Below, piece by piece: positions 13,795-27,141 of a stretch of 64,000 nt of DNA (the stretch's first letter is position 1; each line of letters opens with the position of its first letter). The translations under genes were made by a program, and so were the position numbers. Location: NCBI RefSeq assembly GCF_007197885.1, contig NZ_VKKG01000006.1, positions 248,001-312,000 on the forward strand, written 5' to 3'. Source of the DNA: Tessaracoccus rhinocerotis. GTDB lineage: Bacteria; Actinomycetota; Actinomycetes; Propionibacteriales; Propionibacteriaceae. A model generated the notes under the pieces. That model worked only from the letters and a program-made list of their open reading frames with translations. It did not search any database and was not told the DNA's origin.

Positions 13795-15081
<1,287 letters not shown>

Positions 15082-15199
15082 GTTCAGATGTGCCTTCCTG
15101 GGGACTACGACGTCTGTGCCGCGGTGTCATCAATGGCTGTGCCTGCGTGTGCCCAGCCAACCATACAGCGTTGAACCCAACACTATTCGGGCCGAGACG

Positions 15200-15239
15200 G
15201 GGCGCCTCGGCGGCTTTCAGCGTAAGCGCGGAGGCGCCC
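15200..15239. other. hairpin in gltA-yceI intergenic region
   Basis: Perfect 9-base arms (GGGCGCCTC at 15200-15208 and GAGGCGCCC at 15231-15239) are separated by 22 bases, with TTT following on the plus side. It sits between two divergent promoters, so it could be part of the gltA leader or an insulator. No riboswitch class is recognised in this 263-base gap. Confidence 0.35.
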
Positions 15240-15268
15240 TTTGGCGAAAACATGTCCCCCCGGAACTG

Positions 15269-15298
15269 GTTGACTTTTCAACTAGATGGGTGCATAGT
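15269..15298 (+). promoter_or_regulatory. yceI promoter with overlapping operator-like palindrome
   Basis: TTGACT (15270-15275) and CATAGT (15293-15298) are separated by 17 bases, a good vegetative promoter 46 bases ahead of the yceI start. The -35 overlaps the palindrome GTTGA-CTTT-TCAAC (15269-15282), and AGTTGA recurs at the -10. A repressor of the MarR type could block the promoter here; no such gene is in the window. Confidence 0.55.
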
Positions 15299-15344
15299 TG
15301 AGGATGCAAGCACTTCTACAGACACCCACCCGAGGAGAATCATC

Positions 15345-15890
15345 ATGGCAAACCACCAGGAGCTGAACGGCGAGTACACCGTCGACGCGTCCCACACCAC
15401 CCTGGCCTTCGTCGCCCGGCACGCGATGATCACCAAGGTCCGCGGCACCCTCGCCGCCTCCGGCCAGGCCGTCCTGAACGCCGCCGACCCCAAGGCCTCC
15501 AGCATCACCGTCACCGCCGACACCACCTCGGTGAACACCGGCAACGCCGACCGCGACGCCCACCTGCGCAGCGCCGACTTCTTCGAGTCCGAGACCTACC
15601 CGAACATCACCTTCACCTCCACCGATGTCACCGTCGTGGGCGACGACGAGCTCCAGGTCACGGGCGACCTTACGATCAAGGACGTCACCCAGAGCGTCAC
15701 CATCCCGCTCGAGTACACCGGCACCGTCGTCGATCCCTTCGGCGCCACCCGCGCGGGCTTCGAGGGCAAGCTGCCCGTCAAGCGCTCCGAGTTCGGCCTG
15801 ACTTGGAACGCGGCCCTCGAGGCGGGCGGCGTCCTCGTCTCCGACAAGGTCACCCTCGAGTTCGACGTGGCCCTGGTCAAGAACGCCTGA
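15345..15890 (+). CDS. YceI family protein
   Basis: Lipocalin-like beta-barrel protein of 181 residues of the YceI family, whose members bind isoprenoid-type lipids and are often induced by acid or oxidative stress. Diagnostic blocks are GEYTVDASHTTLAFVARHAM at the N-terminus, HLRSADFFESETYPNITFTS in the middle and LTIKDVTQSVTIP. The ATG at 15345 follows CGAGGAGAA. There is no signal peptide, as usual for actinobacterial members. It is a single-gene unit with its own promoter and a strong terminator. Confidence 0.93.
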   Translation: MANHQELNGEYTVDASHTTLAFVARHAMITKVRGTLAASGQAVLNAADPKASSITVTADTTSVNTGNADRDAHLRSADFFESETYPNITFTSTDVTVVGDDELQVTGDLTIKDVTQSVTIPLEYTGTVVDPFGATRAGFEGKLPVKRSEFGLTWNAALEAGGVLVSDKVTLEFDVALVKNA

Positions 15891-15910
15891 TCCACCTCCT
15901 TCGGGAAGAC

Positions 15911-15945
15911 GAAGGCCCGGACAGCTCTCAGCTGTCCGGGCCTTC
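15911..15945. terminator. strong bidirectional hairpin terminator
   Basis: A perfect 16-bp stem (GAAGGCCCGGACAGCT against its complement) closes a CTC loop. It lies between the convergent yceI and DUF6458 genes, 20 bases from each stop, and can serve both directions. Confidence 0.9.
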
Positions 15946-15964
15946 GCGCCGTTGGTGAAAGGAA

Positions 15965-16210
15965 TCAGATGCCGTCCCGCGTCTCAGAGCGGGTCACCTG
16001 GTCACCGGTGTTGGGGTCGTTCATGACGCGGGTCTCAGTGCTGCGATGCCGCTGCGAAGCGATGAGCGACCAGATCACGCCGAAGACACCGCAGGCCATC
16101 AGGATGTAGCCGGCGATGTTGATGTTGAAGAACGAAACCGTGTCCTCGCTGATCGCGAAGGCAAGGATCGCACCCAGCGCCAGCAGGAAGATCGAGGTAC
16201 CGATACGCAT
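15965..16210 (-). CDS. small two-helix membrane protein (DUF6458-like)
   Basis: Protein of 81 residues starting MRIGTSIFLLALGAILAFAI. A second hydrophobic stretch (IAGYILMACGVFGVIWSLIA) and a short polar, charged C-terminal tail follow. This matches the small DUF6458 membrane proteins common in Actinobacteria, whose function is unknown. The tail (ETRVMNDPNTGDQVTRSETR) probably faces the cytoplasm. It is a single gene convergent with yceI. Confidence 0.85.
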   Translation of the reverse strand: MRIGTSIFLLALGAILAFAISEDTVSFFNINIAGYILMACGVFGVIWSLIASQRHRSTETRVMNDPNTGDQVTRSETRDGI

Positions 16211-16329
16211 GTCTTGTCCTCTCTAGTACGGAAGCGACCACGGGGGCCGCGTTTCGTCACTCTAGCGCCGACGCGTCCGATCCACGCGCCAGACACCTGC
16301 AGTTCACCAATCCTCGCTACGTTGAGCAC

Positions 16330-17694
16330 GTGAACAGCAACCAGCCGCCGTCGGGGCACCTCTACGATCCCGCAACGGCCGACGACGTCGTCGACATCAC
16401 CCTTGGCGCCCTGCCAGACACGCCCGCTCCCAAGTGGAAGGTCTTCAGTTGGGGCCTGTGGGACTGGGGCACGCAGCCGTTCAACACGGTCATCACCACG
16501 TTCGTGTTCTCGGTCTACATCACCTCCTCGGCGTTCGGCACCGAGAACCAGACCTCCATCGCCCTGTCCATCTCGACGGGCACCGCCGGCCTGCTGATCG
16601 CCCTGCTCGCCCCGATCCTAGGGCAGGGCGCAGACCGCTCCGGAAGACGCATGTTCCACCTGCGCTGGCAGACGTGGCTGCTCGCGGCCATCTCGGCGGC
16701 GCTCTGGTTCGTCGCGCCCGAGCCGTCATACCTCGTGCTCGGGCTGGTGCTGCTCGCCGCCGGCAACCTGGTGGGCGAGATCGCAAACGTCAACTACTAC
16801 GCGGCCATCGACAAGGTCTCCACCCCCGGGACCGTGGGCCGCATCTCCGGGCTCGGCTGGGGTCTCGGCTACATCGGCGGCATCGCGATCCTGCTGCTGA
16901 TCATCGCCCTGCGCGGCTCGGAGTTCGGCGCCGACGACGTGCGCTTCTCCATGATCGTGTGCGGCCTGTGGACGCTGGTGTTCACCATCCCGATCTTCGT
17001 CGCGCTCCGCGACGAGAAGGTCGAGAACCCGCCGCCGCGCCGGTCCCTGCCCGAGTGCTACCGCGACCTGTGGCGCTCGCTGCAGCGCGTCTACCGCGAC
17101 AACCCCCACACCGTGTACTTCCTGCTCGCCTCCGCGCTGTTCCGCGACGGGCTCGGTGGCGTCTTCACCTTCGGCGCGGTCCTGGCCGCCGGCACCTTCG
17201 GGTTCGAGTTCTCCGAGGTGATCATCTTCGGCGTCGCCGCCAACCTCGTGGCCGGCGTCTCGACGATGGCCTTCGGCCTGCTCGACGACAAGCTCGGCCC
17301 CAAGAGGGTCATCCTGATCTCGCTGTCCTTCCTCGTCGTGCTGGGCCTCGGCGTGTTCTTCCTGCACGACCAGGGCAAGACCGTGTTCTGGGTCCTGGGC
17401 CTTGCCATGTGCATCTTCGTCGGCCCTGCCCAGTCCGCCAGCCGGTCGTTCCTCGCCCGCGCGATCCCGGAGGGCAAGTCCGGTGAGATCTTCGGCCTCT
17501 ACGCCACCACCGGGCGTGCCGTCTCGTTCCTGTCCTCGACTTTCTTCGGCCTGTTCATCGTCATCGGCGCCGAGATCACCGGCAGCCAGGAGACGCAGTA
17601 CTTCGGCATCCTCGGTGTCGTCGTCGTCCTGCTGGCCGGCCTGCTCGTCATGATCCCGGTCAAGGAGGGCGGCCACAGCTTCAGCAAGCAGTAG
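16330..17694 (+). CDS. MFS transporter, UMF1/Atg22-like
   Basis: Integral membrane protein of 454 residues with about twelve helices. The segment WGLWDWGTQPFNTVITTFVF matches the WxLxDWGxxxFxTxI hallmark of the UMF1 (Atg22-like) branch, whose fungal members export amino acids from the vacuole. The bacterial substrate is unknown. The GTG start at 16330 opens a hydrophilic 35-residue N-terminus before the first helix. It is likely monocistronic; a GC-rich hairpin follows its stop. Confidence 0.9.
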   Translation: MNSNQPPSGHLYDPATADDVVDITLGALPDTPAPKWKVFSWGLWDWGTQPFNTVITTFVFSVYITSSAFGTENQTSIALSISTGTAGLLIALLAPILGQGADRSGRRMFHLRWQTWLLAAISAALWFVAPEPSYLVLGLVLLAAGNLVGEIANVNYYAAIDKVSTPGTVGRISGLGWGLGYIGGIAILLLIIALRGSEFGADDVRFSMIVCGLWTLVFTIPIFVALRDEKVENPPPRRSLPECYRDLWRSLQRVYRDNPHTVYFLLASALFRDGLGGVFTFGAVLAAGTFGFEFSEVIIFGVAANLVAGVSTMAFGLLDDKLGPKRVILISLSFLVVLGLGVFFLHDQGKTVFWVLGLAMCIFVGPAQSASRSFLARAIPEGKSGEIFGLYATTGRAVSFLSSTFFGLFIVIGAEITGSQETQYFGILGVVVVLLAGLLVMIPVKEGGHSFSKQ

Positions 17695-17703
17695 TCGGTA
17701 TCA

Positions 17704-17719
17704 GCGGCCCCCCGGCCGC
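17704..17719 (+). terminator. GC-rich hairpin after the UMF1 transporter gene
   Basis: GCGGCC-CCCC-GGCCGC forms a six-pair GC stem nine bases past the transporter stop. No T-run follows, so it is only a possible terminator separating that gene from the HNH-ATPase operon. Confidence 0.35.
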
Positions 17720-17799
17720 CTCTTCAGGAGAAGTAGCAGCATTCGTCCCGCCTGCGGGGGACAATCGTCGTGCGGGTCATCAGCGCTGGGGGGTGTGTG

Positions 17800-19812
17800 A
17801 TGGGGTTTCGACGGCCTACGGAACCGCGTGTGCTGGCCTCGGCGCGCTCCCGCGGCGCGGCGCCCGTGGGTCCACGCACGAAGCAACAGGCACCCGCGCC
17901 CGACCTCGCCCTCCAGCACCCCGACGTCGTGGGTGCGCTGCTGGAGGCCACCGCCTGGACTTGCGCCTACTGCGAGCGCCCGCTGACCGGGTCCGGCCCT
18001 GACGGCGTCATCGCCACCCACCACCGCCCCACCTGGGGCGCCGTCGACACGGACGGCACAGTCACCTTGGATGCCTACCGCTGGCTCGCGCTGGTGTGGG
18101 ACAACATCTACCCGGCCTGTGCCGACTGCGTCCGGGCCAAGGGGACCCGCTTCCCGGTCGACGGCCCCCGCGCGAGGCCCGACTCCGGCCTGTCGGCCGA
18201 GCGTGCCCTGCTGCTGGATCCCGCGGTCGACGACGCGGACGCCCACCTCCGGTACGGGGCCGATGGCCAGGTGGTGGCGCTCACCCGGCGGGGCAACGCG
18301 ACCATCGAGGTGCTGGCGTTGAACCGGGACGCCCTCGTCGGCGCCCGGCGTCGCCTGGCCGAGGAGCCGGGCCAGGTGCTCGGGTTCCCCACGATGCGGC
18401 GCCAGGCCGGCGGTCTCCCCACGGGCGAACGGGTGGACCGCGAGGAGATGCAGGGGGCCGCCCCACCGCCGCAGTCCCTTCCGGCCGGGCCCGCCCTGCC
18501 GTCGGGCGAGACCGGCTACGACCTCAGCGTGCGGCTGGCCGACGGCGAGAAGCAGCAGTACTTCCAGGCCACACAGTGGATCGAGCGGGTGGTCATCCGG
18601 AACTTCCGCCCCATCCGGGAGCTCGAGGTGGACCTGGCGCGCTCCACCAGCGAGCAGGGCCCCTGGACGGTCCTCCTGGGCGAGAACGGCAGCGGCAAGA
18701 GCTCCATCCTGCAGGCCGTCGCGTTGACCCTGATGGGCGGTGAGCAGCGCCGCGCGCTGGGCATCGACGCCCGCAGCTACCTGCGCCACCGCGCGCGCAA
18801 GGGCCTGGTGCAGGTGTTCCTCACTGGCCGCCGGGAACCGCTCGAGCTGCGCTGGGAGCACGGCGACGTCGAGTTCACCGGCCCCGAGCCGGTGCCGGTG
18901 CTGCTGCTCGGCTACGGCGCCACGCGGCTGTTGCCGCGGCACGCCGACGCCGGTGCCGACTCGCGGGCCGTGCGTGTCGACAACCTCTTCGACCCGCTCC
19001 TGCCCCTCACCGACCCCACCTCCTGGCTCCTCTCCCTGGAAGACGACACCTTCGCCGACGTCGCGGCTGGCATCCACGACCTCCTCGCCCTCGACGGCGA
19101 CTCCGAGCTCGTGCGCACCCGCGAGCACGTCCGCCTGCGCCAGGGGCGGGCCGAGTCGGACCTGACCACCCTCAGCGACGGCTACCAGGCCATGGTGGTG
19201 ATGTCCTGCGACATCCTGCGCAGCGTGCTGACCATGTGGCCGCAGGCGTCGCTGGCCGAGGGCATCGTCCTGATCGACGAGGTGGGCGCCCACCTGCACC
19301 CCCGCTGGCGGATGCGGATCGTCACGGCCGTGCGGCAGCTCCTGCCGCGCGTGCAGTTCATCATCTCCACCCACGACCCGCTGTGCCTGCGCGGCGTCCT
19401 CGACGGCGAGGTGGTCGTCGTGCGCCGCAACAGCGAGGGCGACGTCGTCACCATCGTCGACCTGCCACCCGTGGCCGGCATGCGGATCGACCAACTGCTC
19501 ACCTCCGAGCACTTCGGCCTGGGCAGCACCGACGACCCGGAGATCACCGAGCTGTGGGAGACGTACTACTCGCTGCAGGGCCTGCGGCGCCCGGACGACG
19601 AGCAGCTGGACCGGCTCGACGCCGTGCGCGCGCGCCTCGACGAACTCGAGCAGCTGGGGACCACCGAGCGCGAACGGCTGCTGCTGGCGGCCGCGGACCG
19701 CTACATCGCGCGCCGCCGCGAGGCCGGCGACGCGGTGACGCCGGGCCCGGCAGCCGTCACCGCGGAGCTCTCGCAGCTGTGGGCGGAGAACCTGCCCGGG
19801 GTGAAGAAATGA
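17800..19812 (+). CDS. HNH nuclease-AAA/ABC ATPase fusion (Septu-like)
   Basis: Protein of 670 residues joining two modules usually encoded separately. Residues about 50-120 form a zinc-type HNH domain, with CAYC (C55, C58), the THHRP histidines (H74/H75) and CADC (C107, C110) in the same order as PtuB/TIGR02646-type nucleases. From about 270 an SMC/OLD-like ATPase begins (VVIRNFRPIRELEVDL). It has Walker A GENGSGKSS (G294-S302), signature-like LSDGYQAMVVM, Walker B IVLIDE (D493/E494) and the switch histidine in STHDPLCL. No Toprim domain is visible. The start at 17800 follows a GGGGGG tract. Its TGA overlaps the next ATG. The combination points to ATP-controlled nucleic-acid cleavage, probably in defence; that role is inference. 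Confidence 0.85.
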   Translation: MGFRRPTEPRVLASARSRGAAPVGPRTKQQAPAPDLALQHPDVVGALLEATAWTCAYCERPLTGSGPDGVIATHHRPTWGAVDTDGTVTLDAYRWLALVWDNIYPACADCVRAKGTRFPVDGPRARPDSGLSAERALLLDPAVDDADAHLRYGADGQVVALTRRGNATIEVLALNRDALVGARRRLAEEPGQVLGFPTMRRQAGGLPTGERVDREEMQGAAPPPQSLPAGPALPSGETGYDLSVRLADGEKQQYFQATQWIERVVIRNFRPIRELEVDLARSTSEQGPWTVLLGENGSGKSSILQAVALTLMGGEQRRALGIDARSYLRHRARKGLVQVFLTGRREPLELRWEHGDVEFTGPEPVPVLLLGYGATRLLPRHADAGADSRAVRVDNLFDPLLPLTDPTSWLLSLEDDTFADVAAGIHDLLALDGDSELVRTREHVRLRQGRAESDLTTLSDGYQAMVVMSCDILRSVLTMWPQASLAEGIVLIDEVGAHLHPRWRMRIVTAVRQLLPRVQFIISTHDPLCLRGVLDGEVVVVRRNSEGDVVTIVDLPPVAGMRIDQLLTSEHFGLGSTDDPEITELWETYYSLQGLRRPDDEQLDRLDAVRARLDELEQLGTTERERLLLAAADRYIARRREAGDAVTPGPAAVTAELSQLWAENLPGVKK

Positions 19813-20675
19813 GGAAGGTGCCGCTCCCCGCCGCCCCGCCCGGGCTGGACTCGGAGCGGGCCAGGCAGGAGCGCGCCGACGCCCTCGCGTTCTACGAGGA
19901 CTGGGACGGCGCCGCGAAGTTCGCGTTCGACGCCTACAAGGCCGCCGACGTGCGGCCCGCGCTGGAGGTGGCCTTCGGCGGCAAGTGCGCCTACTGCGAG
20001 ACCTACTACGGGGCGACGCAGCCGGTGGCCATCGAGCACTACCGCCCCAAGGGCGCGGTGGTGGTCGAGGGCAGCACGAAGCCCAAGCCGCCCGGCTACT
20101 ACTGGCTGGCCAGCGACTGGACCAACCTGCTGCCGTCGTGCACCGACTGCAACAGCCCGCGTGGCCAGGACCTGCCGGGGGAGCACCGCACCGCGGGGAA
20201 GGCGAACGCGTTCCCGCTGGCCTCCGAGGACACCCGGGCGCACGCGCCCGGGGAGGAGCAGGACGAGGACCGGCTGCTGCTGCATCCCTACTGGGACTTC
20301 CCCGAGAAACACCTCACGTTCGTGTGGGGCACCGACTCGGTCAGCGACGGCTGGGTCGAGCCCCGCCGCAGCAGCTCGGGCCGCGTGAGCGCGAAGGGGG
20401 ACGCCACCATCAGGGTGTGCGCCCTGCAGCGCCGCGGCCTGGTCAAGGCCCGCCGGGAACGGCTGGTCGACCTCGTCGCCCACCTCGAGGGCGTCGTCGA
20501 GGCCCGCGACAACGCCGTCGCACACCCGGACGACGCGCGCTTCGTCGAGCAGTTCGCCCGGCGCGTGCGGGAGGTGGCCCGCTTCGTCGAGGACCACGCC
20601 CCCTACAGCGCCATGGCCAAACAGGTCGTGGCCGCCTACCACGACAGGCTCTTCGGTCCCAAGGAGGAACCATGA
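19809..20675 (+). CDS. HNH endonuclease, PtuB/TIGR02646-like
   Basis: Protein of 288 residues with a textbook retron/Septu-type HNH domain: KCAYCE (C60, C63), IEHYRPK (E76, H77, K81), the YYWLASDWTNLLPSC block and CTDCN (C111, C114, N115). A KANAFPL segment and a charged, helical C-terminal half follow. Similar proteins are the nuclease partner (PtuB) of PtuA-type ATPases in Septu and in retron Ec78. Here the partner ATPase already carries its own HNH domain, so the complex would have two different HNH active sites. Both ends overlap neighbouring genes by ATGA, which implies fixed stoichiometry. Confidence 0.88.
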   Translation: MRKVPLPAAPPGLDSERARQERADALAFYEDWDGAAKFAFDAYKAADVRPALEVAFGGKCAYCETYYGATQPVAIEHYRPKGAVVVEGSTKPKPPGYYWLASDWTNLLPSCTDCNSPRGQDLPGEHRTAGKANAFPLASEDTRAHAPGEEQDEDRLLLHPYWDFPEKHLTFVWGTDSVSDGWVEPRRSSSGRVSAKGDATIRVCALQRRGLVKARRERLVDLVAHLEGVVEARDNAVAHPDDARFVEQFARRVREVARFVEDHAPYSAMAKQVVAAYHDRLFGPKEEP

Positions 20676-22561
20676 CCCGCATCGACCACTACGCGGCGCC
20701 GCCCCTGGAGTGCGACATCGTCATGAAGGGCGGCATCACCAGTGGCGTCATCTACCCGAGGGCGGTCGCGGAACTGGCGCGCACCTACCGGCTGCGGTCG
20801 GTCGGTGGGGCGTCGGCCGGGGCCATCGCCGCGGCCGCCGCGGCCGCGGCGGAACTGGGTCGGGCAGAGGGCGGCTTCGAGGAACTCGACACCCTGCCCC
20901 GCGACCTCACCGCGCCCGGCCCGGACGGCCGCTCGACGCTGTCCACCCTGTTCCAGCCCACCCGGACCGCTGCGCCCCTGTTCCGGCTGCTCGGCGCCGT
21001 CGGCGACAAGGAGGGTGCCGCGAAGGGGGCTGCCGTCGTCGGCGGCCTGCTGCGCGGCTACTGGTGGGCTGCACTGCTGGGCGCGCTGCCGGGGCTGGCG
21101 CTGGTGGTGCTGGGAGCCCTCGGAACGGGGACCGGTCGGGTGGCCGGGATCATCGGCGGCGTCCTGCTGCTCCTGGTGGGTGTCGTTGTCGGGGTCGCGC
21201 TGGCCGCTGGCAGGACCCTGGGGCGCGTCGCCTCCGACGGGTTCGGGATGTGCACGGGCATGCCGGGCGTCGATTCCGGGGCCGCCCCGGCCCTGACGCC
21301 GTGGCTGCACGCGAAGGTCCAGTCGCTGGCACGGCGCGCTCCGGATGCGCCCCCGGTGACCTTCGGACAGCTCGACGACGCTGGCGTCAAGCTGCGCATG
21401 ATGACCACGAACCTCACCCGCCACCAGCCGATGGCCATGCCGTGGCGCAGCCACGAGTACTTCTTCGACCCCCAGTACCTGCGCACCCTGTTCCCCGACG
21501 ACGTCGTGGACTGGATGGTGGCGCACCCACCCGCGGCGGGAGGGTTCTCGTCGCAGCTGCTGCGCGCCCAGGCCGGGAACCTGCGGCCGTGGCCGGACGC
21601 GCGCGACCTGCCCGTTGTCGTCGCAACCCGGATGTCCCTGAGCTTTCCGGTGTTGATCCAGGCGGTCAGGCTGGCCGCCGTCGACTACGGCCAGCCCGGC
21701 AACCGCGTTGCCCGCGAGGCCGTCTCCGCGTGGCGCAGGGAGCACCGCGACGGCACCGTCGAGCAGGCGCTGGCCGAGCTGCAGCCGCCGGAGTTCTCGC
21801 CCGTCTGGTTCACCGACGGCGGCCTGTGCGCCAACCTGCCGGTCCACTTCTTCGACTCGCCGCTGCCCAAGCACCCGACGTTCGCGCTCAACCTCGGACC
21901 GTTCCCGCCCGGGCGCTCCAAGCGGCCCGACGAGCGCGCCAACAGCTACCTGCCGACCGTCAACCAGGGCGGCGCCACCCGTGGCTGGTTCCCGCTGCCG
22001 ACCGACGGCCTCGGCGCCTGGGGAGGTTTCGCCGGGATCATGCTGCACACCGCCCGGGAGTGGGTGGACGCCGGGCAGATGACGATGCCCGGCTACCGCG
22101 ACCGGATCGTGACCGTGCACCACACCGCCTCCGAGGGCGGGATGAACCTGGACATGCCGCACGAGGTGGTCTCCGCCCTGGCCGAACGTGGCCGCCAGGC
22201 GGCGGGCAAGCTGGTCGCGGCGTTCGGTCCCACAGGTGATGCCTGGACCTACCACCAGTGGATCCGGATGCGCACCTCCACCGCCGGCCTGAGTGGCTGG
22301 ATGGCGGAGTTCCTCGACTCCTACCGGAGCCCGCAGCCGGTTCCGTACCCGAACCTCGCGGGGGAGGGTGCCGACGCCGAGCTGCCGTCGTACTCCGTGG
22401 GGGTGGGGGACCGGCGGCTGGTCAACCAGCACGTCGACGAGCTGGTGGACCTCGCCCGGTCGTGGGGCGGCGACGACGCTCTTGCCAAGGGGGCGCCCAG
22501 CCCGCGGCCGCAGCTGCGGCTGGTCCCCGACGACGGGACGGCGGAGGGTCTGAGCGAGTGA
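20672..22561 (+). CDS. patatin-like phospholipase with internal membrane hairpin
   Basis: Protein of 629 residues with the patatin catalytic dyad. The oxyanion loop is MKGGITSGVIYPRA (about 18-31), the nucleophile elbow GASAG has S48, and the aspartate is in FTDGG (D382). Between them, at about 130-180, lie two long hydrophobic stretches (LLGALPGLALVVLGALG and IIGGVLLLLVGVVVGVALAAG) that should form a membrane hairpin and anchor the enzyme. A strong AAGGAGG precedes its ATG, which overlaps the HNH gene stop. Patatin enzymes are known membrane-damaging effectors in defence (for example CapV in CBASS), but no nucleotide cyclase is nearby. Here it is likely controlled by the HNH-ATPase pair. Confidence 0.85.
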   Translation: MTRIDHYAAPPLECDIVMKGGITSGVIYPRAVAELARTYRLRSVGGASAGAIAAAAAAAAELGRAEGGFEELDTLPRDLTAPGPDGRSTLSTLFQPTRTAAPLFRLLGAVGDKEGAAKGAAVVGGLLRGYWWAALLGALPGLALVVLGALGTGTGRVAGIIGGVLLLLVGVVVGVALAAGRTLGRVASDGFGMCTGMPGVDSGAAPALTPWLHAKVQSLARRAPDAPPVTFGQLDDAGVKLRMMTTNLTRHQPMAMPWRSHEYFFDPQYLRTLFPDDVVDWMVAHPPAAGGFSSQLLRAQAGNLRPWPDARDLPVVVATRMSLSFPVLIQAVRLAAVDYGQPGNRVAREAVSAWRREHRDGTVEQALAELQPPEFSPVWFTDGGLCANLPVHFFDSPLPKHPTFALNLGPFPPGRSKRPDERANSYLPTVNQGGATRGWFPLPTDGLGAWGGFAGIMLHTAREWVDAGQMTMPGYRDRIVTVHHTASEGGMNLDMPHEVVSALAERGRQAAGKLVAAFGPTGDAWTYHQWIRMRTSTAGLSGWMAEFLDSYRSPQPVPYPNLAGEGADAELPSYSVGVGDRRLVNQHVDELVDLARSWGGDDALAKGAPSPRPQLRLVPDDGTAEGLSE

Positions 22562-22595
22562 GCGTCGGGGCACCCGCCGCGCCCGGCCCGGGTGG

Positions 22596-23771
22596 CTAGC
22601 GGCTGCCCCACTCCCACGGGACGGTGCTGAGGAGGCCCTGGCCCTCCAGTCGGGTCTCGCCGACTTCCTTCACCAGGTGGTGGTGGGTGACGGCGTCCTC
22701 CGCGCCGAGCGCGAGCAGCGGCTGGATCAGTGCGTCGGAGTGTGAGACCACCATCACCTGGGTGCGTGTGGCGACGTCCGTCATCAGCCGTGCCAGCACC
22801 GGTAGCACGTGCGGGTGCAGGCTGGTCTCGGGCTCGTTGAGCACCAACAGGCTCGGCGGTTGCGGGCTGAGCAGCGCGGTGGCCAGCAGCAGGAACCGCA
22901 GCGTGCCGTCGCTCAACTCGTCGGCGCCCAGCGGGCGCAGCATTCCGGGTTGGCGCACCTGCAGGTGGAACCGCCCGTCGGTGCCCTCCGCGTCGATGAG
23001 GACCTCGCTGCCGGGGAACGCCTCCTCGAAGGCCCGTGCGAACGGCCCGGCCCAGGCCGACTCGAGGACGGTTTGTACCGCGGCGGCGAGGTCGTGGCCG
23101 TCGTCGGCGAGTACCGGGGTCCAGGTGCCGACGCAGGAGGAGCGGGCGGGGGCGGCGGAGTCGGTGCGGAAGCTGTCGTAGAAGCGCCAGCCCGAGACCA
23201 CCTGCCGCATCCAGCCGATGTCCGGGTAGCCGTCGGGATCGGACAGTTCCGAGAGGATGCTGACCCGGGCCGAGAGCTTTGAGCCCACGGTGCGCGACTC
23301 GTCGTCGAAGACGGTCACCGTCGAGTTCTTGCGCTGCACCAGCCGGGAGGCCGGACGCAGGACGGGCGCGGCGAAGATCTCCTCGCGCTTGATCTGGGGG
23401 TCGCGGACGAAGGCGGTGGGGCTGGGGATTGGCAGCCCGATGTCGATCAGGTAGGCGAGTTCCGGGGTGGCGAACCCCAGCATCAGGCTGACCGGCTTGC
23501 TGCGCGACGAGGAGCCCTGCACTGCCACCTCCCCGCGGCGCATGGCTCCGGAGATCCGTTCGGGACCTGCCCACAGCACCCGGTCCAGGCCGCCTTCGGC
23601 GGCCAGGGAGCCGACGACCCCCGAGGTGGCGGTTCCCGCCAGCAGCCGCATCGCGCGGTAGAGGCTGGACTTGCCCGAACCGTTGGCGCCCGTGACCAGC
23701 GTGACGGGTGCCATCGGGACGGCGAGGTCGCGCAGCGAGCGGTAGCCGTGCACGGCGAGCGTGGTGATCAT
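22596..23771 (-). CDS. AAA ATPase, RecF/COG4637-like
   Basis: Predicted ATPase of 391 residues. The N-terminus ITTLAVHGYRSLRDLAVPM leads into Walker A GANGSGKSS. The distal part has a signature-like LSDGTLRFLLLATALL, a Walker B variant SLLVLNEPETSLHP (Asn in place of the usual Asp before Glu-Pro-Glu) and the switch histidine in VVSHSDALI. It belongs to the OLD/RecF-like soluble ABC ATPases and has no nuclease domain. It is convergent with the HNH/patatin operon, with only 34 bases between stops. It could be an accessory of that operon or an unrelated gene. Confidence 0.85.
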   Translation of the reverse strand: MITTLAVHGYRSLRDLAVPMAPVTLVTGANGSGKSSLYRAMRLLAGTATSGVVGSLAAEGGLDRVLWAGPERISGAMRRGEVAVQGSSSRSKPVSLMLGFATPELAYLIDIGLPIPSPTAFVRDPQIKREEIFAAPVLRPASRLVQRKNSTVTVFDDESRTVGSKLSARVSILSELSDPDGYPDIGWMRQVVSGWRFYDSFRTDSAAPARSSCVGTWTPVLADDGHDLAAAVQTVLESAWAGPFARAFEEAFPGSEVLIDAEGTDGRFHLQVRQPGMLRPLGADELSDGTLRFLLLATALLSPQPPSLLVLNEPETSLHPHVLPVLARLMTDVATRTQVMVVSHSDALIQPLLALGAEDAVTHHHLVKEVGETRLEGQGLLSTVPWEWGSR

Positions 23772-23811
23772 GGCGACAACCTACGGGGCCACACTGACGC
23801 CTCTCCCGGGC

Positions 23812-23896
23812 AACCCGCTGAGAACTGAACCGGGAACTCCGTGGGGCCGCGAATGAGTCGTTTCATTTTTTGTTCCGGGTCGCAGTATCAGCAGGG
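23812..23896. repeat. 86-base palindromic element, copy 1 (diverged)
   Basis: The left arm 23812-23837 (AACCCGCTGAGAACTG...) and right arm 23872-23896 (GTTCCGGGTCGCAGTATCAG...) surround a 34-base centre containing CATTTTTTG. The second copy at 58859-58944 has the same arm lengths, the same 34-base centre and the same CATTTT-GTTCCGGG junction. Both copies lie just past the 3' end of a minus-strand gene. Confidence 0.6.
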
Positions 23897-23928
23897 TCTC
23901 CGATCGCCCCGCGTGGCGGGGCCGACCT

Positions 23929-25854
23929 TCACGCCAGGATGGCCTCCACCGCCGCGTCGATCTCGCGCAGCATGGTGGGGTCGGTGCCGGGCATCGGCGC
24001 GATGATGGTGTCCCCGCGGGCGGCGTCGGAGGGGATCCCGAGCAGGTGGATGCGGTGCCGCCCGGCCGGTCCGATGAGTTCGCTGGTGACCTCGTCGATG
24101 GCGAAGGCCGGGCCGAGGGAGCGGTCGCCGTGGGCGGTCAACCTTCCGAACGGCTGCGCCAGGCCCTGCTCCAGCAGACCGGAGATGATCGGGTCCTGCG
24201 TGAACCGGCCGTCGTGCAGCCGAACCCACGCGTCCAGCAGCGCCGGCGCCTCCACCCGGGACCCCTCGATCAGCGGGGAGTGTGCCACGAATCCGGTCTC
24301 GCCCACCTCGACCGTGATCCTCGGTCCCACGAAGCGCACCAGTCCTGCGTCCACCAGGGCCAGCAGCTGCGCCGCCCGGAAGGCCGGCGGCCCGGAGCCG
24401 ATGGTGCCGCCGAAGGAGAGGAACTCGCGCAGGTCACCCTCGTAGCCCTCGGCGTCGATGCCGTCGAAGGCGGCCAGCTCGGTGAGGAACCTGCGCGCGG
24501 CGTTGGCCTCCCACAGCCCGGCCTTGAACGGTGAGTCGAGCCCGAGGCGGGCCTCGGCGAGGTCCGAGGCCACCCGGTCGACGATGAACTCCTCGTAGGA
24601 GTCCCGGCCCTGCGGGTGGACGTGCTCGTGGAGGAGGGCGTGGAAGTCGAAGGGTGGTAGCTCGTCGGGGAGGAGGTGCACGATGGCCGGGGCCAGCTCC
24701 CACGGCTCGTTGGCGTCGATGAGTTCGATGATCGCGTCCAGGTCGATGTCGTGGAACCGGGCCGCGGTCTCGTAGTAGGCCTGGGTGGCGTCGCGGGCGA
24801 GCAGGGGGAGGAAGTCCTCGGTGAACCGCAGGGGCCGGCGGGCCCGCCAGTCGACTGCGCAGACGCGGGCCAGCTTCACCGCCGGCGGCAGACCCTCGTA
24901 GACCGACTTGGCGCGGAACGGCAGCCCCTTGCGGGAGCCGACGTGCAGGATCGGCTCCTGCCCGCTCGGCACGTAGCGCAGGCGCTCGCCGTCGGGCTCG
25001 AACCGGCCGCCGCGGCCGATGGTGAGCATGGACATCGAGTCGAAGAAGCCCATCCCGAATCCGCGCACGATCACCGGCTCGCCGGCACGGATCCCGGAGA
25101 GGTCCTGCTCGATGGGGCTGTCCGGCGGCACCCACGTCACGTCCACGCCGGAGGACTCCACGGCGGCCGCGAGCGCCTTGTCCGCGTGGTTGGGCTCGCT
25201 CTCGAGCCACCCCAGGGCCAGGGCCACGGCGTCGGCCCGCAGCACCTCGCCGTCGGCCAGCTCCACGACGGGGCGCCCTGCATCGTCGGTGGTGACCCGG
25301 GTGGCGCGGGTGCGGTGCCAGACCACCTGCACGTCGGGGCCCAGCTTCGCCAGTGCGGTGCGCAGCACCCAGTCCTGGTAGAGCCCGAACAGGGCACGGC
25401 TGGGGTGCGAGCCGGGGCCGGCGGCGGCGACCTCCGCGCGGAACGCCTCGTCGGCGGCGACCAGCTCGACGTCGGCCCCCTCCAGGAACGCGCGGCGGTG
25501 GGAGTCGGGGATCGGCGGCGCGTCGGCGGGCTCGCCGGTGATGGTCTCGTGGGCCAGGCGGCACCACTCCCACAGGGTGGGGCCCTCGACGACGGGGCCC
25601 GCGCCGCTGAAGGAGTCGTCGGTGAACATGGTCACGGCGCCGGCGAGGGTGTTCATGCACATGTCGCGGTCCTGGTCGGTGCGCCAGAGCCGGCCCGCCC
25701 CGGGCTGAGCGTCGTCGACGAGGTGGAGGGTCAGTTCGCGGTTGCCGCGGGCGCCGATGCGCTCGAGCAGGGAGACGCCTCGCGGCCCCAACCCGACGAT
25801 CACAACGGTCAGTGCCGAATCCGCCACCACTCCACCCTTCTGTTCATGCCCCAC
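23929..25854 (-). CDS. FAD/NAD(P)-binding protein (COG4529-like)
   Basis: Protein of 641 residues with an N-terminal Rossmann fold (VVIVGLGPRGVSLLERIG). The following HLVDDAQPGAGRLWRTDQ segment is typical of the NAD_binding_9 family of putative flavoproteins. A second nucleotide-binding region includes VALALGW and VIVRGFGMGFFDSMSML. No catalytic cysteine pair or defined substrate motif is evident; members are annotated only as putative oxidoreductases or hydroxyacylglutathione-like proteins. It diverges from the branched-chain-type ABC importer operon with a 126-base shared control region. A link to metabolism of the imported substrate is possible but unproven. Confidence 0.8.
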   Translation of the reverse strand: MGHEQKGGVVADSALTVVIVGLGPRGVSLLERIGARGNRELTLHLVDDAQPGAGRLWRTDQDRDMCMNTLAGAVTMFTDDSFSGAGPVVEGPTLWEWCRLAHETITGEPADAPPIPDSHRRAFLEGADVELVAADEAFRAEVAAAGPGSHPSRALFGLYQDWVLRTALAKLGPDVQVVWHRTRATRVTTDDAGRPVVELADGEVLRADAVALALGWLESEPNHADKALAAAVESSGVDVTWVPPDSPIEQDLSGIRAGEPVIVRGFGMGFFDSMSMLTIGRGGRFEPDGERLRYVPSGQEPILHVGSRKGLPFRAKSVYEGLPPAVKLARVCAVDWRARRPLRFTEDFLPLLARDATQAYYETAARFHDIDLDAIIELIDANEPWELAPAIVHLLPDELPPFDFHALLHEHVHPQGRDSYEEFIVDRVASDLAEARLGLDSPFKAGLWEANAARRFLTELAAFDGIDAEGYEGDLREFLSFGGTIGSGPPAFRAAQLLALVDAGLVRFVGPRITVEVGETGFVAHSPLIEGSRVEAPALLDAWVRLHDGRFTQDPIISGLLEQGLAQPFGRLTAHGDRSLGPAFAIDEVTSELIGPAGRHRIHLLGIPSDAARGDTIIAPMPGTDPTMLREIDAAVEAILA

Positions 25855-25883
25855 CCCGCAACAACCGGGATCGTCTCGATTTC

Positions 25884-25955
25884 ATTCCCGTTCACATGAT
25901 CGGGAATAACCGGCGCGCGGCGGTGGTTGCCGGGTTCGGACGCACGCCTGCGTCC
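25884..25955. promoter_or_regulatory. paired inverted repeats in the livK upstream region
   Basis: Two perfect palindromes lie between the divergent FAD-protein and substrate-binding-protein genes: ATTCCCG-10-CGGGAAT (25884-25907) and GGACGCA-CGCC-TGCGTCC (25938-25955). Either could be an operator; the second could also be a leader hairpin ahead of livK. No regulator gene is adjacent. Confidence 0.4.
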
Positions 25956-25980
25956 TGAGTCATCGCAAGGAGTAGGAACA

Positions 25981-27141
25981 ATGCGTCCATCCATCAGGAA
26001 AACCCTGGCTGCCACCGCCTCCGCCGTTGCCATGCTGGCCATGGCCGCCTGTGGGCAGGACGCCGGCCCCGCCGAAGGCGGTGGTGGTGAGGACAAGGCC
26101 ACCAGCGTGACGTTCGGCGTCGTGGGCCCCAAGACCGGTGACCAGGCACAGTACGGCGAGGACTGGCAGAAGGGCTTCGACCTGGCGCTCGAGGAGCTGA
26201 ACGCCGAGGGCGACGTCGAGTACAAGATTGACTTCCAGGACTCCCAGGGCCAGCCCGCGCAGGCCAGCAACATCGCCCAGAAGTTCGTCTCCGACGACAA
26301 CATCTACGCCGCGATGGGCGACTTCTCGTCCGCCACCTCCATGGTCGCCAGCCCCGTGTTCCAGCGCGGTGAGCTCGTCCAGCTGGGCATCACCAACTCG
26401 CACCCCGAGTTCACTGACACCGGCGACTACATCTTCGCCTCTCCGGTGACGCAGGCCGTCGAGGGCCAGCTGCAGGCCGACGGCGCGAAGGCGCTCGGCG
26501 ACAAGGCCGCCGTGTTCTACCTCAACACCGACTGGGGCATCACCACCTGGGACGTGTTCGAGGACCGCGCCGCCGAGAACGGCCTGGAGATCGTCTACTC
26601 CTCCGCCGTCGAGGAGGCCTCGACCGACTTCAAGCCGCTGCTGCTGAACGCGAAGAACGCCGGCGCCGACGTCGTCTACATGCTCACCTACTACAAGACC
26701 ACCTCGCTGCTGGTGCAGCAGGCGGGCGACGTCGGTCTCGAGGCCGAGTTCGGGGCCGTAGGCTCCAACTACTCGCTCGAGTTCCTCGAGCTCGCCGGTG
26801 ACGCGGCCGACGGGGTCTACATGGCCACCACGTTCTTCCCGGCCTCGGAGGATCCCGAGGTGAAGGCCTACGTCGAGGCGTTCACGGAGAAGTACGGGTT
26901 CCAGCCGAACCTGTTCAACACCTACGCCTACGACGGCGTGAAGGCCCTGGCGAAGGCCTACGAGGAGTCCGACGGCACCCGCCAGGGACTGCGCGACTCC
27001 CTCGCCACCAGCTCCGAACTGCCCTCGATCGTCTACGGCACCTACGGCTTCAACGAGGAGCGTCGCATCGACAACCCGACCTTCCGCTGGATCCAGGTCA
27101 AGGACGGCGAGTTCGTCGAGGTCGACCCGCTCGTCGAGTGA
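25981..27141 (+). CDS. ABC importer substrate-binding lipoprotein (LivK-like)
   Basis: Lipoprotein of 386 residues that captures the substrate of the importer encoded downstream. The signal sequence ends in the lipobox LAMAAC, followed by a Gly-rich tether and a type I periplasmic-binding fold beginning VTFGVVGPKTGDQAQYGEDW. The family Glu/Asn/Tyr-rich hinge segments (FNTYAYDGVKALAKA) are present. The ATG at 25981 follows AAGGAGTAGG. The spacer to the permease gene (27142-27343) contains two copies of CGCCCGGCCGGG (27169-27180 and 27200-27211) able to form GC-rich structures. These may stabilise or end part of the livK message, as is usual for binding-protein genes. Branched-chain or related amino acids are the likely ligand. 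Confidence 0.92.
   Translation: MRPSIRKTLAATASAVAMLAMAACGQDAGPAEGGGGEDKATSVTFGVVGPKTGDQAQYGEDWQKGFDLALEELNAEGDVEYKIDFQDSQGQPAQASNIAQKFVSDDNIYAAMGDFSSATSMVASPVFQRGELVQLGITNSHPEFTDTGDYIFASPVTQAVEGQLQADGAKALGDKAAVFYLNTDWGITTWDVFEDRAAENGLEIVYSSAVEEASTDFKPLLLNAKNAGADVVYMLTYYKTTSLLVQQAGDVGLEAEFGAVGSNYSLEFLELAGDAADGVYMATTFFPASEDPEVKAYVEAFTEKYGFQPNLFNTYAYDGVKALAKAYEESDGTRQGLRDSLATSSELPSIVYGTYGFNEERRIDNPTFRWIQVKDGEFVEVDPLVE

Follow-up and report, generated by a model that had tools for sequence, protein, structure and literature searches.

Septu-type ptuA and ptuB genes recur beside a patatin-like phospholipase gene in Actinomycetota and Pseudomonadota

INTRODUCTION

In CBASS, patatins kill via membrane damage, and to our knowledge, those patatins of bacterial immunity that are known are switched on by cyclic nucleotides. 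For the Septu system EcB88, the Walker residues of PtuA and the HNH residues of PtuB are required, and the system is described as cutting tRNA-Tyr in its variable loop, according to the available part of that report (PMC13096335). A second report, as far as its available text goes, describes depletion of tRNA-Tyr by the PtuAB pair of retron-Eco7 and action on nicked DNA by the Septu system of E. coli ATCC 25922 (PMC11555353). In the PADLOC paper, the system named Septu type II includes a reverse transcriptase, and the portion available mentions no lipase (PMC8565338).

Here we describe a locus in a 64,000-nucleotide stretch of Tessaracoccus rhinocerotis DNA (the window) in which a patatin-like gene, C, follows genes of PtuA type (A) and PtuB type (B). 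An earlier note on this DNA had put the exact set forward as a candidate undescribed system. For the three genes together this stands, in that the literature searched (mainly open access, with subscription journals and preprints sparsely covered) yielded no report of a Septu system that includes a patatin. For the first two genes it does not, because A and B fall within the Septu models of PADLOC.

RESULTS

Genes A, B, and C are all open on the + strand, and their coordinates were confirmed from the sequence. As the earlier note had claimed, each gene overlaps the next by ATGA, with A and B sharing 19809-19812 and B and C sharing 20672-20675. The features of the locus are as follows.

17800..19812, + strand: gene A, PtuA-type ATPase with a fused N-terminal HNH-like domain, 670 amino acids (PADLOC PDLC00292, AlphaFold2 model)
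17932..18357, + strand: degenerate HNH domain of A, about residues 45-186 (T73, H74, N102, V111; C55, C58, C107, C110 retained)
18580..19464, + strand: ATPase domain of A, about residues 261-555 (Walker A 294-302 with K300, signature 458-462, Walker B 490-494, H-loop 523-527)
19809..20675, + strand: gene B, putative PtuB-type HNH nuclease, 288 amino acids (PADLOC PDLC00328, motif)
20661..20667, + strand: strong ribosome-binding site of C, AAGGAGG, within the 3' end of B (sequence)
20672..22561, + strand: gene C, putative patatin-like phospholipase, 629 amino acids (Pfam PF01734, model)
20813..20815, + strand: codon of the nucleophile S48 of C (GGASAGAI), invariant in 31/31 trio rows
21062..21235, + strand: hydrophobic helical hairpin inserted in C (model helices 131-149 and 154-188)
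21815..21817, + strand: codon of the catalytic D382 of C (DGG), invariant in 31/31 trio rows

On one side of the trio lies a putative MFS-like transporter gene, named from its sequence (16330-17694), and on the other a convergent AAA ATPase gene, P0004 (22596-23771). As a candidate fourth gene, P0004 adjoined the trio only in Tessaracoccus sp. OS52 (L082) among the loci scanned. Beyond P0004 is a gene at 23929-25854 whose L082 counterpart is a FAD-NAD(P)-binding protein. Nine further window genes scanned with PADLOC gave a single match, an ABC-transporter ATPase (mad3 model), and no nucleotide-cyclase (CD-NTase) gene was present among the window proteins scanned, which represent part of the window's genes. 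A retron was rejected: RVT_1 was absent from the window's own genome (in the control, 3 of 14 genomes had matches), and a search for a retron RNA gave no Rfam match at 15000-26000. A phage origin was rejected as well, in that C had no match in the phage collection, 0 of 72 pattern matches in viral contigs were confirmed, and A matched 7 of 50,697 phage records, with no match spanning over 80% of the protein.

Judged by sequence, genes A and B encode a PtuA/PtuB pair of the Septu type. A matched the PADLOC PtuA1 model PDLC00292 with an E value of 1.8e-189, its ATPase is of the ABC/SMC type, and the best structural matches of its AlphaFold2 model were solved PtuA chains. B matched the PtuB1 model PDLC00328 at 3.1e-67, as well as NCBIfam PtuB (5.7e-13) and TIGR02646 (9.1e-10), both short of the curated cut-offs. 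Its E76, H77, N106, and N115 form a complete motif that was intact in 46/46 rows (30/30 from trios and 16/16 from patatin-less loci), bearing out the earlier assignment of B as a PtuB/TIGR02646-type HNH protein. For A, the fusion of an HNH domain to an SMC/OLD-like ATPase had been proposed; the domains are there, including C55/C58 and K300, but the HNH domain is degenerate, since T73, H74, N102, and V111 stand where B carries its four catalytic residues. The full catalytic set was missing from A in 30/30 trios and in 15/15 readable patatin-less relatives. Those relatives were mostly hand-chosen plasmid matches, and only 15 of 17 rows were readable because the reading used gave no HNH region for L160 and L166. 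With the HNH of A degenerate, cutting would be possible by B alone, which makes B the sole plausible nuclease. The sensor/nuclease pair that had been suggested therefore stands as a Septu-type PtuA/PtuB pair but probably not as two nucleases. As the motif of B is intact and that of A is incomplete, the trio would comprise one nuclease, one pseudo-nuclease, and one phospholipase. PDLC00292 is a 726-position profile, and its first 244 positions match protein B; the A+B pair, fused HNH included, is thus already covered by the PADLOC Septu models.

C matched Pfam Patatin PF01734 at 2.4e-9, which passes the cut-off, and no PADLOC model matched it. Its structural model (pLDDT 90.0) had patatin-fold matches that included AbCapV and CapE, and the glycine-rich loop, serine nucleophile, and DGG aspartate of the patatin fold are present. 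Together with S48, D382, and two hydrophobic segments (residues 133-151 and 160-178), these results agree with the earlier description of a patatin with a Ser-Asp dyad and an internal membrane hairpin. The 31 trio rows scored for S48 and D382 include L037, from the same genome as L091; it was left out of the HNH motif counts and is also counted among the 69 others in the analysis that gave the hairpin and the A/C distances.

We determined how often the trio occurs elsewhere. Of 138 patatin relatives found in a contig scan, we retained the best 80, which make up 79 loci, so the locus sample is biased toward close relatives. Using HMMs for A and B built from four trios, the window's among them, we found A+B beside C in 27 of the 79 loci drawn from the best 80 of 138 relatives, that is, in 26/57 fully flanked loci (at least 3.5 kb on each side) and 1/22 others. 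The trio recurs in Actinomycetota and Pseudomonadota, with hosts that include Tessaracoccus, Arachnia, Occultella, a Thermoleophilia bacterium, Rhizobium, Ensifer, Kaistia, Hoeflea, Tabrizicola, Rhodobacter, Rhabdaerophilum, Ruegeria, Shinella, and Comamonas. Three arrangements were seen: A-B-C on one strand (the default), C-A-B (L151, L156, and L157), and C facing B-A (L152). Among plasmids, C was present in 22 of 72,556 records, and A+B adjoined C by coordinates in 10 of these 22, with two loci confirmed by a complete reading and some of the records being near-copies. In 60 genomes around the window, its own included, C was found in 12, A in 11, and both in 10. B lay between A and C in 9/9 of those ten that were fetched, as it does in the window; A occurred without C in one genome of the same genus (G828) and C without A in two (G852 and G126). 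Of the 36 genomes of the genus, 9 had A and C, 1 had A only, 1 had C only, and 25 had neither (Fisher P = 1.0e-6, with kinship ignored). At an E value of 0.001, 394 genomes of the window's class gave C in 17 and A in 30, most of the A matches being weak; A and C both matched strongly in G360 and in the window, and G136 had A (1.5e-60) without C. Across 385 genomes of the class of G421, with two candidates scored per genome, the A profile matched in G421 only. Neither of these class-wide samples entered the linkage evidence. The co-occurrence check, set beforehand, came out positive, with the patatin and A+B recurring as neighbors across phyla. The trio is more than a chance assembly, as it recurs in other genomes.

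The two modules also occur apart. A+B without C was found in 15 fetched, HMM-checked plasmid loci as well as in G828, and the plasmid loci show that C is optional. C stood without A+B in 31/57 fully flanked loci. Some of these solo copies follow housekeeping genes (glnE, a sigma factor, and dus), and in a close relative, L087, C follows a P-type ATPase-like gene. A search for A in trans, covering the genomes behind 40 of the 79 kept loci, detected it in 8/8 trio genomes and 1/32 others. The neighbors of 68 non-trio loci gave no shared partner: no neighbor cluster exceeded 6 loci (relatives of one family code), two covered 4 loci, and the scanned members of the latter two were short-chain dehydrogenases and ABC transporters. 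Ten genes next to solo patatins, nine of them upstream and one downstream, included one from a Gabija pair.

An enrichment near defense genes had also been asked about. In a coarse comparison (two genes per side, simple gene calls, capped family lists), 100 genes beside 27 trios matched 47 PADLOC families at an E value of 1e-20, and 94 genes beside 24 solo patatin loci matched 46, Gabija among them; no excess beside the trios was seen. Among the 25 of 47 trio-side families listed, mad3 was matched by 3 genes and a methyltransferase, HEC-01A, and IetA by 1 each. The mad3 model also matches an ABC-transporter ATPase of the window.

On a patatin tree of 93 rows (L036, L037, L038, L049, L095, and L120 left out as duplicate, fragment, short, or odd), trio status needed 10 changes versus a shuffled mean of 25.7; the 10 is an upper estimate because L085 ends at a contig edge and L145 retains only the end of B, in frame with C. 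Trio rows were L101, L123, and members of three groups, one Propionibacteriaceae-Occultella, one main alphaproteobacterial, and one C-first. For patatin status, the A tree (47 rows) required 6 changes (5 to 6 in bootstraps, with 3 forced by starred branches). The L152 patatin clustered with L151, L156, and L157 (SH-aLRT 100); its A instead sat with the other alphaproteobacterial set (98/86). A and C are co-inherited, their distances over 30 trios correlating with an r of 0.945 (0.963 and 0.925 within two groups), and the trio is under purifying selection. In the C-first four, the A-C correlation was weak (r = 0.556; 261 of 2,000 permutations were as high).

L082 carries the trio at the window's site, preceded by an extra metallophosphoesterase-like gene; its matched flanking proteins are 79 to 91% identical to the window's, versus 63 to 68% for A, B, and C. 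In G842, of the same genus, the citrate synthase, MFS, and FAD genes keep the window order, the trio and P0004 are absent, and the gap from the MFS frame to the FAD frame is 543 bp. In six further Propionibacteriaceae loci, no counterpart of the window's flanking genes was found close to the trio (the flanks of L083 being short). With the site empty in G842 and the trio at other sites elsewhere, these results fit a mobile, site-changing gene set.

DISCUSSION

We favor, with moderate confidence, reading the trio as a three-gene Septu variant in which a PtuAB-like pair works with a membrane-anchored lipase effector. A and B would assemble as PtuA and PtuB do: the ATPase would form an oligomer, sense infection, and carry B as the one active HNH nuclease. 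The dead HNH of A may retain a structural role, such as docking B. C would be a phospholipase held in the membrane through its hydrophobic hairpin. Upon infection, with a phage as the presumed trigger, the complex would activate B to cut nucleic acid, the targets reported for other PtuAB systems being host tRNA and nicked DNA. C would be turned on directly or indirectly, possibly through contact with A or B, and would hydrolyze membrane lipids so that the infected cell stops. We infer two killing arms, a nuclease and a lipase, and the trio probably acts by abortive infection; these functional proposals are modeled on relatives, namely, other PtuAB systems. Counted against a three-gene Septu variant are the separate occurrence of the modules, the lack of a defense-gene excess, and the weak A-C correlation in the C-first four. 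It is also quite possible, if short of probable, that the trio represents a widespread and undescribed Septu class with two effectors, in which one ATPase complex built around a dead HNH unleashes a nuclease and a membrane-embedded phospholipase, striking nucleic acids and membrane together without a diffusible second messenger.

The weight of the killing could instead lie with the patatin, with A+B mainly sensing infection and controlling C and the nuclease of B licensing or tuning the lipase. C has its own strong ribosome-binding site, invariant catalytic residues, and a fold matching that of AbCapV and CapE, and CBASS patatins act on the membrane. However, A+B pairs without C exist and the HNH motif of B is intact in all 46 rows, suggesting that B likely works as a nuclease on its own, and we regard a mainly lipase-driven system as quite unlikely. 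That C is a passenger with a role in lipid handling or stress, often cotransferred with A+B but working independently, also seems unlikely. It would explain why more than half of the fully flanked copies are solo, why A was elsewhere in just one solo-patatin genome searched, and why some solo copies adjoin housekeeping genes, and one plasmid relative is annotated "RpoH suppressor" (no source of the annotation was found). It sits poorly with a pairing repeated in different gene orders and tree positions, with the tight overlap in the window, and with the co-inheritance of C and A. Finally, a housekeeping operon for DNA or membrane maintenance, rather than defense, would be consistent with the missing defense-island context, given the sole PADLOC match among the nine further window genes, and with the absence of a defense-gene excess beside trios. 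This we consider very improbable, as A and B come from families tested as anti-phage, the trio is patchy in the genus (9/36), and its site is empty in G842 while other genomes carry it at other sites.

Were the patatin wired to the PtuA ATPase, a lipase would be controlled by an ATPase, some members of a large uncharacterized patatin family with a membrane hairpin would gain a function, and the retron class would be joined by another Septu class of three genes. The conserved dead HNH of A bears directly on how PtuA holds PtuB.

Compared with known systems, the trio is closest to Septu type I in its PtuA1 and PtuB1 matches, the adjacency of A and B with an ATGA overlap, and the PtuA-like fold of the ATPase. 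It differs from classical type I, which has two genes and no lipase, by its third gene, a patatin, and by the degenerate state of the fused HNH in A, although the fusion itself lies inside the PDLC00292 profile. Septu type II, or retron I-A (Ec78 and Eco7), shares an ATPase and an HNH protein of the same families and is likewise a three-gene PtuAB variant in the available part of its description (PMC8565338), but the third gene of the trio is a patatin and not a reverse transcriptase. Solo patatins of the same family have motifs and a hairpin in common with C but, unlike the trio, stand apart from A and B and from any common partner found. In contrast to the CBASS effectors CapV and CapE, C falls outside the PADLOC models, is longer, and has a hydrophobic hairpin.

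The patatin gene of the window converges, across a gap of 35 bp, with an ATPase gene, P0004:

22596-23771, minus strand, AAA_21 ATPase (P0004)

Tessaracoccus sp. OS52 (locus L082) has a counterpart of P0004 in the same place, 78.6% identical. In genome G842, which belongs to the same genus, P0004 is missing and so is the trio of PtuA-type ATPase with fused degenerate HNH, PtuB-type HNH nuclease and patatin. Two further genomes of the genus hold these modules separately: G828 has the PtuA/PtuB pair without the patatin (L188), and G852 has a patatin after a P-type-ATPase-like gene, without the pair (L087).

Rhodobacter viridis JA737 carries two differing trios in its single genome (L136 and L152), one in the order ATPase-HNH-patatin and the other with the patatin facing HNH-ATPase. 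Several large genomes of a single family (code f19) have patatins without the pair (L042-L048), possibly a resident solo form.

At L164 (7931-8944) and L177 (9160-10059), fused-HNH PtuA/PtuB pairs without a patatin were seen on Priestia and Rhizobium plasmids, with reverse transcriptase genes nearby on the opposite strand, one of them annotated as retron St85 family. In Mycobacterium sp. 852002-40037 (L093, 5563-11971), a Gabija-type GajA/GajB pair is followed about 240 bp downstream, on the same strand, by a close patatin relative, and therefore this patatin may pair with other defence ATPases.
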